A DNA stretch of 64,000 bases, taken from NCBI GenBank assembly GCA_001769195.1, contig MEOK01000001.1:1-64000 (forward strand). The letters run 5' to 3'. Source of the DNA: Bacteroidetes bacterium GWF2_40_14 (lineage in GTDB: Bacteria > Bacteroidota > Bacteroidia > Bacteroidales > UBA932). Of this stretch, positions 51,665 to 60,649 are shown piece after piece (positions within the stretch are counted from its first letter, which is position 1; every line of letters begins with the position of its first letter). The notes beneath the pieces were generated by a model that was not told the origin of the DNA, made no database searches, and saw only the letters and a program-made list of their open reading frames with translations. The translations under genes and the position numbers were made by a program.

Positions 51665-51727
51665 ATGAAAATAATCAATACATATTTTTTCCGTTTCTGT
51701 TTCTGTTTTCCACAGGAGAGGGTCTGA
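51665..51727 (+). CDS. pheL: pheA leader peptide (Phe-rich)
   Basis: A 20-residue frame reads MKIINTYFFRFCFCFPQERV, with five Phe and one Tyr clustered at positions 7-15. It ends 70 bp before pheA, and a terminator hairpin lies between. Composition and location match the logic of E. coli PheL. The frame is too short for ordinary gene calling. Stalling at the TTT/TTC run would be the sensor for charged tRNA-Phe. Confidence 0.82.
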   Translation: MKIINTYFFRFCFCFPQERV

Positions 51728-51759
51728 TATGTTATTGCTGTTATAATAATAAATAATGT

Positions 51760-51789
51760 AAAGGTCCCTTAATACGGGGCTTTTTTTTT
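51760..51789 (+). terminator. Attenuator terminator before pheA
   Basis: AAAG-G-TCCC (51760-51768) pairs with GGGGCTTT (51776-51783) with one bulged G and one U-G pair, followed by a run of nine to ten T. An alternative partner for the proximal arm is the AGAGGGTCT stretch spanning the leader stop codon (51718-51726): about seven pairs with one mismatch to GGTCCCTT. The pheA ATG follows 8 bp after the T-run. Confidence 0.7.
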
Positions 51790-51797
51790 GTAAAAAG

Positions 51798-52679
51798 ATG
51801 AAAGAATCAGAAAATCACACAGTAAGCGTAGCAATTCAGGGTGGGTTTGGAGCATTCCACGAAATTGCCGCCAAACAGTTCTTTGGAAAAAATGCCATTA
51901 AAATAATTCCTTGCGACACATTTGCCGACTTGTTTCACGAACTTAAGGAAAAGAGGGTAGATTGCGGGATAGTTGCAATAGAAAACTCTGTTGCAGGCAG
52001 TCTTCAGCAAAATCACTCATTTCTTAGTGATAGCGGACTGCCTGTAATAGGGGAGCAATATCTGAGAGTTGTGCAGAACCTGATAGCACTGCCCGGACAG
52101 AGCATCGATGATATTAAAGAGATTCACTCTCATCCCGTTGCAATACAGCAATGTCATTTGTTTCTGAACGAATTGCGAAAAAAAGGGGTGAAAATTGTGG
52201 ATTCAATAGACACTGCTTTGAGTGCCAAAAGAATAAGGGATGAACACCTGTTAGGTTCAGCAGCATTAGCCAGCTCACTAGCTGCTGAGATGTATGATCT
52301 GGAGATTCTTCGCTCGGGAGTGGAGGACAACAAAAGGAACTTTACCCGGTTTATGATAGTAACACAAAGCGATAAGGTAAAGCGCATGGCAAAAATTGCC
52401 AACCAGTCTGTAAATAAAGCCTCTCTCTGCTTCTCTCTTCCACATCAGCAGGGAAAACTGTCACATGTGCTATCGGTACTATCCATCTATAACATGAACC
52501 TTACAAAAATACAATCTATGCCAATAGTTGGAATAGAGTGGGAGTATATGTTCTATGTAGACCTGATATTCTCAGATCACAAACGTTACAAGCAGGCACT
52601 GGAGGCTATAAAACCTCTTACCGACAAACTACAGATTCTTGGAGAGTATCAGAACGGTGAGCAGCCTCAACAGGATTAA
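51798..52679 (+). CDS. pheA: Prephenate dehydratase
   Basis: The 293-residue protein has the dehydratase domain (VAIQGGFGAFHEIAAKQFFG, 20 residues; GIVAIENSVAGSL; and the DNKRNFTRFMI motif with the catalytic Thr). A C-terminal ACT domain (SLCFSLPHQQGKLSHVLSVL, then ESMP-like KIQSMPIVGIEWEYMFYVDL) confers feedback control by phenylalanine. It lacks a chorismate mutase domain. It is preceded by a Phe-rich leader and attenuator, giving two layers of Phe control. It converts prephenate to phenylpyruvate. Confidence 0.95.
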   Translation: MKESENHTVSVAIQGGFGAFHEIAAKQFFGKNAIKIIPCDTFADLFHELKEKRVDCGIVAIENSVAGSLQQNHSFLSDSGLPVIGEQYLRVVQNLIALPGQSIDDIKEIHSHPVAIQQCHLFLNELRKKGVKIVDSIDTALSAKRIRDEHLLGSAALASSLAAEMYDLEILRSGVEDNKRNFTRFMIVTQSDKVKRMAKIANQSVNKASLCFSLPHQQGKLSHVLSVLSIYNMNLTKIQSMPIVGIEWEYMFYVDLIFSDHKRYKQALEAIKPLTDKLQILGEYQNGEQPQQD

Positions 52680-54222: not shown

Positions 54223-54669
54223 GTGAGCGTAAAGGAAAATATTATAGGCTGGAGTAAGGAGGGTTTTGACTTCATTTCAGAGAGAAACGTACCTAAGGAG
54301 GTAATGCAGATAAGAAACAGGTCTGCTCTTCTTGAGGCAGACAACAGGTATACAAAGGAGAAAATAATCCTTTACAGAAAACTTCTGCAGATTGACAGAG
54401 AGAAACTGGATGAAAACAGTAACTATTTTGTTGCAGGGATCAATGAAATCTTAAGGATAAATGTACAGTCATTCCTTAACAAGATGGATAATCCTGAAGT
54501 TCCTCTCTTTGTTACAAAAGATAACGGGGAAATTGAAAAACTGATGGGAGTGAAGGCATATTACCTGAACTTTATAATACAATTGAAATATCAGGACTTC
54601 GATATTTTCAAACGCTACAGGGTGGTCCTTAACAGAAATGGAATAAAAGAGATTGAAGAACTAAAATAA
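54223..54669 (+). CDS. Unknown small soluble protein
   Basis: The 148-residue product starts at a GTG (54223), as no ATG is suitably placed. The sequence is helical and charged (VMQIRNRSALLEADNRYTKE, 20 residues) with no signal peptide or membrane segment. I do not recognise a domain. It follows the membrane protein gene by 27 bp, and the pair plus the CYTH gene form a short unit. Confidence 0.6.
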   Translation: MSVKENIIGWSKEGFDFISERNVPKEVMQIRNRSALLEADNRYTKEKIILYRKLLQIDREKLDENSNYFVAGINEILRINVQSFLNKMDNPEVPLFVTKDNGEIEKLMGVKAYYLNFIIQLKYQDFDIFKRYRVVLNRNGIKEIEELK

Positions 54670-54737
54670 TTCCATCATTGTCACAAGTTGTCATTATCGA
54701 CCTTCATATTTGCATTATAATTTAAAATAAAAGCAAA

Positions 54738-54893
54738 ATGAAGATCGATAATTTTTTTGGAAAAGAGAACAGGAATTCTCAGCCAGATGAGCTTGATAAC
54801 AGAGATTTTTCTGAAATTTATGAAATTAAAGAAGGTGATTATCAGATAAACAGCGAATTTTTATTTGATCAGAGGCTTGTTGCCTTGTATTAG
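54738..54893 (+). CDS. Possible small acidic protein, 51 residues
   Basis: An ATG-initiated frame (starting MKIDNFFGKENRNSQPDELD, 20 residues) ends in TAG at 54891-54893. It is preceded by an A-rich stretch (aaaataaaagcaaa) of the kind seen before Bacteroidetes genes. Codon use is like the neighbours. No homology is recognised. Its end overlaps the -33 box of the leu leader promoter. Confidence 0.4.
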   Translation: MKIDNFFGKENRNSQPDELDNRDFSEIYEIKEGDYQINSEFLFDQRLVALY

Positions 54894-54916
54894 TAATATT
54901 ATTTTTTCTATATTCG
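54885..54916 (+). promoter_or_regulatory. leu operon promoter
   Basis: TTG (54885-54887) and TATATTCG (54909-54916, near TAnnTTTG) are separated by 21 bp, the normal Bacteroidetes spacing. The -7 box ends 8 bp before the leader ATG. Confidence 0.5.
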
Positions 54917-54924
54917 CAGCGGTT

Positions 54925-54990
54925 ATGGAAAGACAAAACTCTAATATTTTACTGAACATTCTCCTACTCTGTATTTGTGTCAAATACTGA
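54925..54990 (+). CDS. leuL: leu operon leader peptide (Leu/Ile-rich)
   Basis: A 21-residue frame contains NILLNILLLCICV: five Leu, three Ile and one Val within thirteen residues. It begins MERQNS and ends VKY-stop. It is the only coding frame between the promoter and the terminator before leuA. Composition identifies it as a branched-chain amino-acid sensor peptide. Leu codons used include CTC, CTA, CTG and TTA. Confidence 0.85.
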   Translation: MERQNSNILLNILLLCICVKY

Positions 54991-55040
54991 GGGGGTGTTT
55001 TATGTAATTTTGGAAAAATAGAATTTTAAATGAAATATAT

Positions 55041-55071
55041 AAACCACCTCTTACCGGGGTGGTTTTTTTTT
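55041..55071 (+). terminator. Attenuator terminator of the leu operon, with competing antiterminator
   Basis: AAACCACCTC pairs with GGGGTGGTTT over ten positions (one U-G) around TTACC, followed by eight to nine T. The proximal arm can instead pair with GAGGGGGT (54989-54996), which begins inside the leader stop codon (seven of eight positions). This is the same layout as the thr attenuator. leuA starts 12 bp after the T-run. Confidence 0.85.
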
Positions 55072-55082
55072 AATAAATAATT

Positions 55083-56579
55083 ATGAGCGAAAAACTATTT
55101 GTATTTGACACAACCCTCAGGGACGGTGAACAGGTTCCGGGTTGTCAGCTTAACACTATCGAAAAGATAGAGTTAGCCAGAGCTCTTGAAGTTCTTAATG
55201 TAGATATTATTGAGTGTGGGTTTCCAATATCAAGCCCGGGTGACTTCAACTCAATAGTTGAAATATCGAAAGTTATCCAAAGGGCCACTATCTGTGCATT
55301 GACAAGAGCAGTTGACAAGGACATAGATGTTGCAGCCGATGCACTTCATTATGCAAGACACAAAAGGATCCATACCGGAATTGGTACATCAGAGGCACAT
55401 ATTCTCCATAAGTTCAAATCTAATAAGGAGGATATTCTGGAAAGAGCGATCCACTGTGTGAAATATGCAAAAAAGTATGTGGAAGATGTAGAGTTCTATG
55501 CAGAGGACGCAGGACGGACCGAGAATGAATATCTGGCCAGAGTAATAGAGGCGGTAATAAAGGCAGGGGCAACGGTAGTAAACATACCTGATACAACCGG
55601 TTATTGTACCCCTTATGAGTACGGGGCAAAGATAAAATATCTTATAGATAACGTACCCAATATACACAAGGCAATAATATCAACACATTGCCACAATGAT
55701 CTTGGAATGGCCACTGCAAACACTCTTGCTGGAGTTATCAACGGAGCACGTCAGGTTGAGGTTACAATTAATGGTATTGGTGAACGTGCCGGAAATACTG
55801 CACTTGAAGAGGTTGTAATGGCAATTAAATGCAGGAAAGATATCCCTGTATTTACAGAAATAGATACAAAATCAATTGTAAAGACTTCGAGACAGGTATC
55901 CACTCTCATGCGTATGCCTGTCCAACCCAACAAGGCGATTGTCGGAAGAAACGCATTTGCACACTCCTCAGGCATTCATCAGGACGGAGTACTCAAGAAC
56001 AGGGAGAGCTATGAGATAATTGATCCGGCAGAAGTTGGTGTCAATGAATCGGTTATTGCGCTAACGGCCAGAAGTGGAAGGGCTGCTTTGAAACACCATT
56101 ATAACCGGTTGAATGTAGAGTTGACCTCAGAAGAACTCGACGAAGCATACAACAAGTTTCTTATTCTGGCCGACTGTAAGAAGGATATTCACGACGACGA
56201 CCTGCTTGTGATAGTAGGTGTCACCCGCTCAGTCAAATCACAGAGGATCCGTCTTAAATATCTGCAGGTTGTATGCGGCAAATCGGCTGTTCCAATGGCA
56301 ACAGTAAAACTTGTTATAGATGGAGAGATTTGTACAGCAACCAGTTCTGGAAATGGTCCTATAGATGCAGCGTTTTCTGCAGTCAAAATGCTTATCCATA
56401 GAAAAATAACTCTGGAAGAGTTTCTTGTGCAGGCAATTACAAAAGGAACCGACGACGTTGGAAAGGTGCATATTCAAATAGAAAACAAAGGAAACATCTA
56501 TTATGGTTTTTCTGCAAACACAGATATCATAACCGCTTCAGTAGAGGCACTTATAGATGCAGTATCAAAAATTATATAA
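55083..56579 (+). CDS. leuA: 2-isopropylmalate synthase
   Basis: The 498-residue enzyme opens [20 protein letters not shown] (20 residues), with the HMGL metal site in [18 protein letters not shown] and [14 protein letters not shown]-terminal regulatory LeuA dimer domain is present (about residues 370-498), so leucine feedback is likely. It condenses acetyl-CoA with 2-ketoisovalerate, the first committed step to leucine. First gene of leuACDB-ilvE. Confidence 0.96.
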
Positions 56580-56583
56580 GACT

Positions 56584-57951
56584 ATGAGCAAGACAATTTT
56601 TGATAAAATATGGGACTCCCATATAGTCAAGCAGATACCGGACGGCCCTTCGGTACTCTACATAGACAGACATTACATACATGAAGTTACAAGTCCACAG
56701 GCATTCTCCGGGCTGGAAAAAAGAGACGTAAAAGTGTTTCGTCCCAGTCAGACATTCGCAACATGCGACCACAACGTACCTACAATAAACCAGCACCTGC
56801 CAATTAAAGATGAATCTTCAAGGATTCCGGTAGAGAAGCTTGCAGAAAACACAAAAAAACATGGAATTACATATTTTCCTCTAGGGCACCCATCAAATGG
56901 AGTCGTTCATATAATAGGTCCCGAACTTGGAATCACCCAGGTGGGAATGACAATTGTCTGCGGAGACAGTCACACATCTACCCATGGAGCATTCGGGAAC
57001 ATTGCATTCGGCATAGGGACTAGCGAAGTTGAGATGGTTCTTGCCACACAGTCGCTGCTTCAGACAAAACCAAAAAAGATGCTTATTCAGGTAAATGGCC
57101 GGCTTAATGACTCAGTTTGCGCCAAGGATATAATCCTGCATATTATTTCTAAGCTTGGAACATCTTCAGGAACAGGATTTTTCATTGAATTTGCAGGATC
57201 TGCAATTTCATCCTTGAGCATGGAGGAGCGAATGACAATTTGCAATATGAGTATAGAGATGGGAGCAAGAGGGGGCTTGATTGCACCTGATGAAATCACC
57301 TTCAGCTATCTAAAAGGCAGAAGATACTCACCAAAAGGTGCCGATTGGCAAAAGGCTGTTGAAAAATGGAAAGAACTCAAAAGCGATCGGGATGCTGAAT
57401 ATGATACAAAATACCAATTCAAGGCAGAGGATGTTGAGCCAATGATCACTTATGGGACGAATCCGGGAATGGGTATGGCAATTGACTCCATTGTGCCGGA
57501 AACTAATGAATATATGGGATTTACCAAAGGGGAAAAACTGACAGAGAAGAAGATAGATTATGTATTTCTTGGCAGCTGTACAAATGGAAGGATAGAGGAT
57601 TTCAGAGCATTTGCAAATTTTGTGAAGGGCAGGAAAAAAGCAGATGATGTTGAAGTATGGTTGGTTCCGGGTTCAATAATGGTTGAGAATGAAATTGAGA
57701 AAGAGGGTTTGGGAGATGTTCTCAGAGGGGCAGGTTTTGAGATTAGGCAACCGGGTTGTTCAGCTTGCCTTGGAATGAATGATGATAAGGTCCCCGACAA
57801 AAAGTATTGCATATCTACTTCTAACCGAAACTTTGAGGGGCGGCAGGGACCGGGCGCAAGAACCCTTCTTGCAGGACCGCTGGTAGCAGCTGCTGCAGCA
57901 ATATATGGAATTGTAACAGATCCAAGAACAATAAAACAAAATATATCATGA
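56584..57951 (+). CDS. leuC: 3-isopropylmalate dehydratase large subunit
   Basis: The 455-residue aconitase-family protein has cluster-binding cysteines in [13 protein letters not shown] and in [13 protein letters not shown], and the motif [20 protein letters not shown] (20 residues). With LeuD it isomerises 2- to 3-isopropylmalate through a [4Fe-4S] cluster. The ATG at 56584, 4 bp after leuA, is preferred over the upstream frame extension. It overlaps leuD by 4 bp. Confidence 0.96.
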
Positions 57952-58526
57952 GTTTCAGCAAATTTACGATATTGGAATCGAAACCGGTTCTTATGCCGGC
58001 AGAAAATATTGACACCGACCAGATTATCCCTGCCAGATTTTTAAAGACCACTACCAGGAAAGGCTTTGGTGAGAACCTTTTTCATGACTGGATGTACAGC
58101 AAAAACGGAGAAAAAAATCCGGAATTTATTTTAAACAAAGAGAATGGCAAAGGTAAAATACTGGTTGCCGGCAGGAACTTCGGATGTGGTTCCAGCAGGG
58201 AACATGCAGCCTGGGCAATATATGACCACGGGTTCAGAGCAGTTGTATCAAGCTTTTTTGCCGACATTTTCAGGAACAATGCCCTAAATAACGGTCTTTT
58301 ACCTGTGCAGGTCAGTCCGGAATTTCTGCAAAAAATATTTGAAACTGGAGAATCCTCTCTTGTAGTGAATCTGCCAGAAAAAACAATAAAAATTTCATCT
58401 ACAGGAGATTGTGAATACTTTGAGATAAATACTTACAAGCAGGATTGTCTTATAAACGGATATGACGATATAGATTTTCTGCTTTCCAACAAAGATGCAA
58501 TTGAAAAATTTGAACAAAACAGATAA
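57948..58526 (+). CDS. leuD: 3-isopropylmalate dehydratase small subunit
   Basis: The 192-residue swivel-domain protein carries [14 protein letters not shown] and [20 protein letters not shown] (20 residues), the LeuD substrate-loop and hallmark motifs. Length is normal. It overlaps leuC (ATGA) and is followed by leuB 4 bp later. Confidence 0.96.
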
Positions 58527-58530
58527 ACAT

Positions 58531-59604
58531 ATGCAAAAAGTCATTACAGTGTTGCCGGGAGATGGCATAGGGCCTGAAATAACTGAACAGGCTGTGAAAG
58601 TATTAAAAGCAGTAGCCGGAAAGTTCGGACACAAGTTCATTTTTCAATATGGATTGATAGGGGCAGCTGCTATTGATGCCTGTGGAAATCCATATCCGGA
58701 GGAGACGCATAACATGTGTATTGCTTCGGATGCTATCCTTTTTGGAGCAATAGGAGATCCTAAATATGACAATGATCCTTCTGCAAAAGTACGCCCCGAG
58801 CAAGGATTGCTTAAAATGAGAAGAGAATTGGGTCTGTTTGCAAACATAAGGCCGGTGGAACTCTTTCCCTCACTAGCCAATCGTTCGCCACTTAAGGAGG
58901 AGATAATAAAGGGAGTAGATATGGTTGTTGTAAGAGAGCTTACAGGAGGGATATATTTTGGAGAGCCAAGGGGCAGGAGTGAGGATGGCTCAAAGGCTTA
59001 TGATACATGTGTGTATTCAAAACCGGAGGTAGAAAGGATATCAAGGGTTGCTTTCAATATGGCAACAGGGAGAAGAGGTGTCGTAACCTTGGTAGATAAG
59101 GCAAATGTCCTGGCTACTTCCAGACTGTGGCGCGAGGTTGTGACAGATATTCACAAGAATGAGTTTCCTCAGATAACATTGAATTTTCTTTTCGTAGATA
59201 ATGCTGCCATGCAACTAGTCACAAACCCGTCAAAATTCGATGTGCTCCTGACAGAGAATATGTTCGGTGATATCCTTAGCGACCAGGCCAGTGTACTTAC
59301 CGGCTCAATAGGACTTTTACCATCGGCATCTATCGGAGACAAAGTTCCTCTTTTTGAACCTATACATGGTTCTTACCCACAAGCTGCCGGCAGGAACATT
59401 GCTAACCCATTAGCCACAATTCTCTCAGCAGCAATGATGTTAAACGATGCATTCCATGCCAAAGATGAAGCAGAGATTATTAAAAATGCCTGCAGAGCCG
59501 CAATTGAACAAAAAATCCTGACAGAAGATCTTGCAGAGAGCGGAAAGGCATTTTCTACGACTGAGACAGGTGACTGGATAGAAGGATACATATTAAATAA
59601 TTAA
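58531..59604 (+). CDS. leuB: 3-isopropylmalate dehydrogenase
   Basis: The 357-residue NAD-dependent enzyme starts QKVITVLPGDGIGPEITEQA (20 residues). It contains the family signature NMFGDILSDQASVLTGSIGL (20 residues) and EPIHGSYPQAAGRNIANPLA. It oxidises and decarboxylates 3-isopropylmalate. The start ATG at 58531 is preferred; the in-frame extension overlaps leuD. Confidence 0.96.
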   Translation: MQKVITVLPGDGIGPEITEQAVKVLKAVAGKFGHKFIFQYGLIGAAAIDACGNPYPEETHNMCIASDAILFGAIGDPKYDNDPSAKVRPEQGLLKMRRELGLFANIRPVELFPSLANRSPLKEEIIKGVDMVVVRELTGGIYFGEPRGRSEDGSKAYDTCVYSKPEVERISRVAFNMATGRRGVVTLVDKANVLATSRLWREVVTDIHKNEFPQITLNFLFVDNAAMQLVTNPSKFDVLLTENMFGDILSDQASVLTGSIGLLPSASIGDKVPLFEPIHGSYPQAAGRNIANPLATILSAAMMLNDAFHAKDEAEIIKNACRAAIEQKILTEDLAESGKAFSTTETGDWIEGYILNN

Positions 59605-59632: not shown

Positions 59633-60649
59633 ATGAAAAAAACAATGGATTGGTCTAAAATAGGCTTCGGTTACATAAAGACAAATACAATGATAACTTG
59701 TCTTTATTCAGATGGAAAATGGAGTGAACTACAAAGTAATACCGACGACAATATTTCTATAAGCGCATTGTCGGCATCGCTTCACTATGGTTTGCAAGCC
59801 TTTGAAGGACTAAAAGCTTATATGGGGGCCGATGGTATTGTCAGGCTTTTCCGCCCCGATGAAAATGCAAAGAGGCTTCAGAGTTCAGCCGGTTATCTTG
59901 GCATGGTAGCACCTGATACAGAACTTTTTATAAAGGCCGTAGAGATGGCAGTAAGAGAGAATATAGATTTTGTACCACCTTTCGGGTCAGGAGCAACATT
60001 GTATATAAGACCCCTCTTGCTGGGAGTTGGCCCCCAGATAGGTCTCGACCCATCAAAAGAATTTCTGTTTCTGGTAGCTGTGACTCCTGTTGGAGGATAC
60101 AACGACGTATCAGGTGCAACCAAGGTTGTAATAGACAGGGATCATGACAGAGCCGCACCGCATGGAACAGGATGTTATAAGGTGGGAGGAAACTATGCGG
60201 CAGCAATGATGTCGGGATACCGTGCAAAAAAAGATGGATACTCTTCGGTTTTATACCTCGACCCAAAGGAGAAAAGATGGATAGATGAGTGTGGCACTTC
60301 AAACTTCTTTGGAATAAGAGGAAATTCATATATTACCCCCCATTCATCCAGTATTTTACCTTCAATAACAAATAAATCAATCATGACTATTGCAGAGAGC
60401 TTTGGTATGGATGTCCAGAAGAGACCCGTTGAGATTACCGAACTAGACAGTTTTGATGAGGTGGGAAGTTGTGGAACCGCTGTTGTTATATCACCAATAT
60501 ATCAAATAGATGATCCTGCCGAGCATAGGATTTACACTTACAAAAATGCTGGTGCCGCCGGAACAACCTCCAACAAATTGTATGATGCTCTCTATAAAAT
60601 ACAGTTCGGAATATCACCCGATACATTTGGATGGATAAATACACTCTAA
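59633..60649 (+). CDS. ilvE: Branched-chain amino-acid aminotransferase
   Basis: The 338-residue class IV PLP enzyme has SLHYGLQAFEGLKAY near the N-terminus, the PLP lysine in GTGCYKVGGNYAAAM, and DECGTSNFFGIRG. It performs the last step of leucine synthesis, which suits its place 28 bp behind leuB. Length matches the large eukaryote/Bacteroidetes-type subgroup. Confidence 0.95.
   Translation: MKKTMDWSKIGFGYIKTNTMITCLYSDGKWSELQSNTDDNISISALSASLHYGLQAFEGLKAYMGADGIVRLFRPDENAKRLQSSAGYLGMVAPDTELFIKAVEMAVRENIDFVPPFGSGATLYIRPLLLGVGPQIGLDPSKEFLFLVAVTPVGGYNDVSGATKVVIDRDHDRAAPHGTGCYKVGGNYAAAMMSGYRAKKDGYSSVLYLDPKEKRWIDECGTSNFFGIRGNSYITPHSSSILPSITNKSIMTIAESFGMDVQKRPVEITELDSFDEVGSCGTAVVISPIYQIDDPAEHRIYTYKNAGAAGTTSNKLYDALYKIQFGISPDTFGWINTL

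Follow-up and report, generated by a model that had tools for sequence, protein, structure and literature searches.

The 64,000-nucleotide stretch analysed here (the window; Bacteroidetes bacterium GWF2_40_14, contig MEOK01000001.1, positions 1 to 64,000) carries a leucine operon on its forward strand. As an earlier sequence-only reading had proposed, the order is leuACDB-ilvE, and all five genes are named by NCBIfam models above their cut-offs: leuA, encoding 2-isopropylmalate synthase, at 55083-56579 (NF002086.0, 709.6 bits, cut-off 532; TIGR00973.1, 655.8 bits, cut-off 598.7), leuC at 56584-57951 (TIGR00170.1, 629.7 bits, cut-off 560.25), leuD at 57948-58526 (TIGR00171.1, 184.5 bits, cut-off 116.25), leuB at 58531-59604 (TIGR00169.1, 484.7 bits, cut-off 353.2) and ilvE at 59633-60649 (NF009897.0, 374.2 bits, cut-off 307). 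Two open reading frames, at 54223-54669 and 54738-54893, lie further upstream in the same direction; for the second, of 51 codons, NCBIfam gives no match at E<=0.001.

Between these frames and leuA, a short leader ORF at 54925-54990 (+) encodes the 21-residue peptide MERQNSNILLNILLLCICVKY, with the five Leu, three Ile and one Val that the same reading had counted; the leucines occupy codons 9, 10, 13, 14 and 15, and the stop codon lies at 54988-54990. The terminator noted just before leuA is likewise present: an intrinsic hairpin of 10 pairs at 55041-55065 (+; regions 3 and 4), followed by a T-run to 55071, is the sole terminator found on either strand of 54600-55200, against a shuffle mean of 0.2. 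Over the leader stop codon lies a G-rich strand, 54989-55004 (+; region 2), whose duplex with the terminator 5' arm and loop is worth -13.6 kcal/mol. A further hairpin at 54963-54994 (+; region 1:2), a pause or protector candidate, runs over Leu codons and into the first part of the G-rich strand; the 54961-54995 fold amounts to -11.8 kcal/mol, and in the window, where this was computed, the hairpin also appears in the minimum-energy fold. Of 200 dinucleotide shuffles of 54918-55080, 199 fold less stably than the real sequence (z -2.79). A promoter -7-like box, TATATTCG, at 54909-54916 (+), ends 8 nt before the leader ATG. The element had been placed at 54885-55071; its parts were all located within this span, and its 5' boundary is now set at the promoter-like box rather than at 54885.

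The arrangement is conserved among close relatives. A Leu-rich leader followed by a terminator occurs at the same place in all 15 same-genus genomes with a full leuA, out of 25 searched. The comparative check suggested by the sequence-only reading, a broken frame beside a retained terminator, thus found both elements together in 15/15. In the one pair that was aligned, the window and L003, the indels in the leader frame are of 3 nt each. Over 13 same-genus-level pairs, leader differences number 28, 15 and 34 at codon positions 1, 2 and 3, and codon changes are 22 synonymous vs 41 nonsynonymous, so that the codon-position signal is modest.

Across a broader set of 162 leuA-upstream regions, a detector calling at least six L/I/V in 10 residues plus a terminator is positive in 53, compared with 13 of 1620 dinucleotide shuffles; the 162 include one duplicate (L018/L073) and related species. 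With other residue sets, the same detector returns 0 (F), 4 (KNE), 2 (SRT), 0 (AGP) and 1 (SPT) of 162. No leader is detected by this procedure at 91 loci. Terminator-like hairpins occur within 400 nt at 20 of these loci; 17 lie more than 180 nt from leuA, and a hairpin within 135 nt is found at just three such loci (L029, L062 and L173). Some leaders escape the detector: those of L162 and L166 are visible by eye, and that of L173 has a GTG start.

Within the family, where 83 of 199 genomes gave some match and 40 of 44 further full-length loci were retrieved, leaders are present in genera g1, g3, g4, g12 and g22 and at one locus each in g15 and g19; the loci read from g14, g9 and g25 carry none. 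The order search matched 124 of 295 genomes, of which 30 gave loci, 26 of them new. Among the best 80 of 589 named records, 13 of which were left out as belonging to other phyla or having too little upstream sequence, leaders precede leuA in Bacteroides gallinarum, Phocaeicola plebeius and Ancylomarina euxinus, and also in Tannerella, Prevotella and Prolixibacteraceae. The loci read from Flavobacteria, Cytophagia and other classes show no credible leader plus terminator upstream of leuA. Three loci were left out of the leuA set: L016 (a fragment, not leuA), L036 (11 nt of upstream sequence) and L169 (leuA start not located).

These counts bear on the explanation that the terminator merely ends upstream transcription, the short ORF being a chance frame. 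The two upstream ORFs do read in the same direction, and at L029 a terminator at -62 to -30 follows an upstream gene with the leader absent. Against this, a promoter-like box separates the upstream ORFs from the leader, and the combination of leader and terminator is far above shuffles, accompanied by the co-varying antiterminator pairing and the CTA bias described below. This explanation is therefore regarded as highly improbable.

That the G-rich strand at the leader stop could capture the proximal arm of the terminator had been read from the window alone; it is now borne out by co-variation over 59 loci. The pairing set was drawn from 63 loci scoring at least 5, with L104, L140 and L141 judged spurious by eye, L020 set by hand and L073 dropped as a duplicate of L018. 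In the 59 loci, the strand near the leader stop pairs with its own terminator 5' arm and loop at a mean of -16.3 kcal/mol, compared with -11.7 kcal/mol for cross-locus combinations, and none of 20,000 permutations reaches the own-pair mean; since the loci are related, such p-values overstate the case. The pairing letters themselves vary, being GAGGGGGUG in the window, GAGGGCAUCUUGU in close relatives, GGAAGUGAG in Bacteroides and GAGAAUGGU in Prolixibacteraceae, with the pairing kept throughout.

The geometry of the putative switch was explored with an equilibrium model of ribosome occupancy, assuming a footprint that reaches 16 nt upstream and 13 nt downstream of the A-site start. For the stage preceding synthesis of the 3' arm, the model predicts an average of 11.3 region 2:3 pairs when a Leu codon is occupied vs 1.0 when the stop codon is, and the direction is the same in 59/59 loci: a stall at Leu codons would free region 2, and a ribosome at the stop codon would mask it. 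This result partly follows from the position of region 2 over the stop codon. In the window, region 2 is predicted to be largely free (9.8-12.8 pairs) with the A site on codons 2-19 and masked (0.1-2.7 pairs) once the A site reaches codons 20-22 (Lys, Tyr, stop). For the full-length RNA at equilibrium, the terminator is predicted to form in the window and in most loci even with the ribosome on the Leu codons; consequently, the antiterminator would have to act kinetically.

In untranslated pre-terminator RNA, the 2:3 antiterminator is predicted to form (10.8 pairs), which does not support a strong protector role for the 1:2 pairing; the hairpin at 54963-54994 may instead serve as a pause signal. 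A pause consensus following region 2 barely exceeds shuffles in the 59 loci (strict, 4 vs 2.1; loose, 46 vs 34.9). The 6-mers GGTATG and GTATGT are enriched after region 2, at 14 occurrences each vs about 2 expected in the 59 loci, an excess that may be shared by descent. In many leaders of Bacteroidales, a GGUAUGU / UAUGUA-like element recurs immediately downstream of region 2, at about 54998-55006 in the window. It is perhaps a polymerase pause site, and its enrichment may partly reflect descent.

Codon usage within the leaders provides a further line of evidence. In the 60 of 62 leader loci with enough leuA for comparison (two had too little), the rare codon CTA accounts for 88 of 326 leader Leu codons vs 82 of 1999 in leuA of the same loci, and its share is higher in the leader in 45 of 60 (Wilcoxon p about 1e-8, with loci that are not independent). 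CTT and TTG are less used in leaders; CTG, CTC and TTA show no significant change. Because TTA is not raised, AT content does not explain the CTA excess. The leu attenuator of S. typhimurium also uses CUA codons, and according to the excerpted text of PMC1183508 their replacement by CUG lowered its sensitivity. The occurrence of the same control codon in Bacteroidales and enterobacteria suggests convergence.

The sequence-only reading had named a Leu/Ile/Val leader peptide and matched it to the end product of the downstream operon. Its leucine part is retained, and the label is narrowed to mainly Leu. Attenuation through the leader might nevertheless sense Ile and Val as well as Leu, as the three Ile and one Val of the window peptide and the Ile+Leu-rich leaders elsewhere in the order could indicate. 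Same-family leaders are mainly leucine, with a mean Ile share of Ile+Leu of 0.16 (n=22), and the CTA bias resides in the Leu codons; joint sensing is accordingly considered unlikely in the window. Given that same-family relatives carry mainly Leu, the Ile and Val of the window leader may be incidental.

Citramalate synthase provides a route to isoleucine via LeuCDB. A link between leader Ile and the presence of a citramalate synthase-like gene (cimA) in the operon is partly supported: the Ile share averages 0.48 in nine leader-bearing cimA operons, vs the 0.16 of the 22 same-family leaders without cimA (p 0.0019, uncorrected for kinship). The comparison omits the near-duplicates L003, L004, L011, L012, L019 and L024, together with L061 (g19; a CimA-like match in the genome and an Ile-rich leader) and L063 (g15). 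Among leuA loci L074-L106, leaders hold more Ile where the operon includes the citramalate synthase-like gene; the exceptions are L074 and L098, which lack cimA and have Ile shares of 0.58 and 0.62.

A different possibility is that the leader acts as a metabolite- or tRNA-binding RNA, a riboswitch or T-box, with the ORF untranslated. T-boxes and many riboswitches are generally known to end in a terminator before a biosynthetic gene, as this leader does. The window has no match to an Rfam family at the gathering score, and a permissive scan of the leader (E<=10) returns sub-gathering matches only, the most relevant being Phe_leader, with no T-box or riboswitch among them. Identity with any such family was rejected on these covariance-model scans, at the gathering score and at E<=10. 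Moreover, the features that recur in relatives are the Leu codons and the strand pairing. A ligand-binding RNA is hence given hardly any probability.

Collectively, the same-genus conservation, the co-varying antiterminator pairing and the CTA bias in Leu codons support the attenuator interpretation of the sequence-only reading, and the element is very probably a ribosome-mediated transcription attenuator of the leucine operon that senses mainly Leu. Its anatomy, conservation, co-variation and codon bias are observed; from them we infer the start site, ribosome stalling, termination and the response to leucine. RNA polymerase would initiate directly downstream of the 54909-54916 box, probably some 5 nt ahead of the leader AUG, with a ribosome translating the Leu-rich leader behind it. 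When charged tRNA-Leu is scarce, the ribosome would stall at Leu codons 9, 10, 13, 14 and 15, leaving 54989-55004 free to capture the terminator 5' arm while the 3' arm is still to be transcribed, and this antiterminator pairing would let transcription continue into leuACDB-ilvE. With leucine plentiful, the ribosome would reach the stop codon and cover the G-rich strand, so that the terminator at 55041-55065 could form and transcription would end in the T-run.

The position of the promoter-like box is a further feature. The consensus given for the Bacteroidetes -7 element in the excerpts of PMC7366714 is TAnnTTTG, and the form searched was TA(2-3 nt)TT[TC]G. Of the 59 loci, 52 have such a box in the 80 nt preceding the leader ATG, compared with 28 of 236 control windows. 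Among the 14 same-genus loci with a box, 13 have a gap to the ATG of 8 nt and the remaining one has 7 nt; a fifteenth locus, L015, has no strict box upstream of its leader. The 8 nt gap also occurs in L017 and L032, one locus each of two sister genera, and the other 36 loci with a box show gaps of 13 to 59 nt (18-25 nt in 27). A sigma-70 promoter scan gave one site, on the other strand and not above shuffles. Of 43 large ORF starts in the window, eight have a box within 60 nt, at gaps of 4, 17, 17, 18, 19, 30, 44 and 45 nt; as one of these is 4 nt, so close a spacing is uncommon without being exclusive to the leader. In B. thetaiotaomicron, 5' UTRs shorter than 10 nt make up about 3.7% of the total, according to the same excerpts (PMC7366714). 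With the leader ATG 7-8 nt from the box, the leu mRNA of the genus is probably almost leaderless, a prediction that depends on where transcription starts.

Comparable leaders precede other amino-acid operons in this genome. In the window, a candidate Phe leader, MKIINTYFFRFCFCFPQERV, at 51665-51727 (+) belongs to an element spanning 51665-51784, with a terminator from 51760 and an antiterminator pairing of -10.6 kcal/mol. It stands before a pheA-like gene at 51798-52679 (+), whose best NCBIfam match, a prephenate dehydratase model, scores 194.3 bits, below the cut-off of 359. Phe-rich leaders with an ATG start are found at nine of 15 same-genus pheA-like loci, the window included, and three more have one by eye with a GTG start; L188, L189 and L191 have no Phe-rich leader. 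Phe counts from L186, whose leader lies at a contig edge, were disregarded. By eye, the box-to-ATG gap is 6-7 nt in the nine loci with an ATG start and 7 nt in the window.

On the reverse strand of the window, a Thr/Ile leader, MTMHTSTIITSTTTALYD, at 36967-36911 (-) forms a candidate attenuator, with a terminator at 36879-36850 (-) and a pairing of -15.5 kcal/mol, before thrA (start 36819, -), the bifunctional aspartate kinase/homoserine dehydrogenase gene (NF006959.0, 1057.8 bits, cut-off 726). It resembles the thrL leader of E. coli. From the end of the promoter-like box, the gap is 4 nt to the first ATG and 10 nt to another ATG in the same frame.

Elsewhere in the genome, a His leader (HHHH) precedes hisG (L219), a Trp leader (WWW) precedes trpE (L228) and a longer Ile/Val/Leu-rich frame precedes ilvD (L194); by eye, all three are followed by a T-run hairpin. 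Of the 20 same-genus hisG loci read, 17 show a His-rich frame, and the trpE domain is found in this genome alone among the 25 same-genus genomes searched. The leader residues match the operon product each time: Phe, Thr/Ile, His, Trp and Ile/Val/Leu. In front of the his and trp frames, the box-to-ATG gap read by eye is an ordinary one of at least about 20 nt, which indicates that a near-leaderless start is not general.

These observations lead to a wider proposal that we hold at roughly even odds. Amino-acid operons of Bacteroidales would be governed by a broad, largely undescribed network of leader-peptide attenuators, with candidates for Leu, Phe, Thr, His, Trp and Ile/Val in this genome, and would have reached the CUA control codon of enterobacteria independently. 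In the genus, the leu, phe and thr leaders would be near-leaderless, with promoters 4-8 nt from the AUG, so that the first ribosome would need no Shine-Dalgarno step to load at the RNA 5' end and would be in step with RNA polymerase from the outset. The results, with their comparative tests, extend textbook attenuation to an order commonly found in the human gut, for which the prior papers found give hints. They also offer an independent test of why CUA makes a good leucine control codon, and the pairing of attenuation with near-leaderless initiation bears on transcription-translation coupling in Bacteroidota.

Among the matches listed in an open-access literature search, judged by titles and abstract openings, a leuA leader attenuator in Bacteroidales is not described, and an open-access full-text search for Bacteroides, leuA and leader peptide together returned no paper. 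Within the phylum, excerpts report strong clues for leader peptide attenuation before amino-acid operons in Flavobacterium psychrophilum (PMC9723704), and for Bacteroides thetaiotaomicron they describe 5' UTR sORFs that call leader peptides to mind (PMC7366714); the leu leader anatomy, the comparative test and the near-leaderless start are absent from those excerpts. The Bacteroid-trp RNA motif (RF01692, Weinberg 2010), a candidate cis-regulatory RNA of Bacteroidetes named for trp (PMC2864571, in excerpt), differs in that neither the window nor this genome's trpE locus matches it at the gathering score. Ten loci scanned with Rfam, the trpE locus and six leuA loci among them, gave no leader family at the gathering score.

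The element is like the pheA leader (Phe_leader, RF01859) in architecture, with a weak match of 26.8 bits over 54929-55071; unlike it, the residues here are Leu rather than Phe, and the score is far below the gathering score of 55. Among the closest known systems is also the leuL attenuator of Salmonella and E. coli (Rfam Leu_leader, RF00512). Both combine a Leu-rich leader ORF before leuA with a terminator, alternative pairing and CUA control codons, the last as given for S. typhimurium in the excerpt of PMC1183508. Unlike leuL, the present leader gives no Leu_leader match even at E<=10, the gene order is leuA-C-D-B-ilvE, the promoter box is of the Bacteroidetes type, and the window leader ATG lies almost at the predicted RNA 5' end. 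The leu attenuator is ordinary in kind, and its distinction is its breadth in Bacteroidales, the convergence on CUA and the near-leaderless start predicted for the genus.
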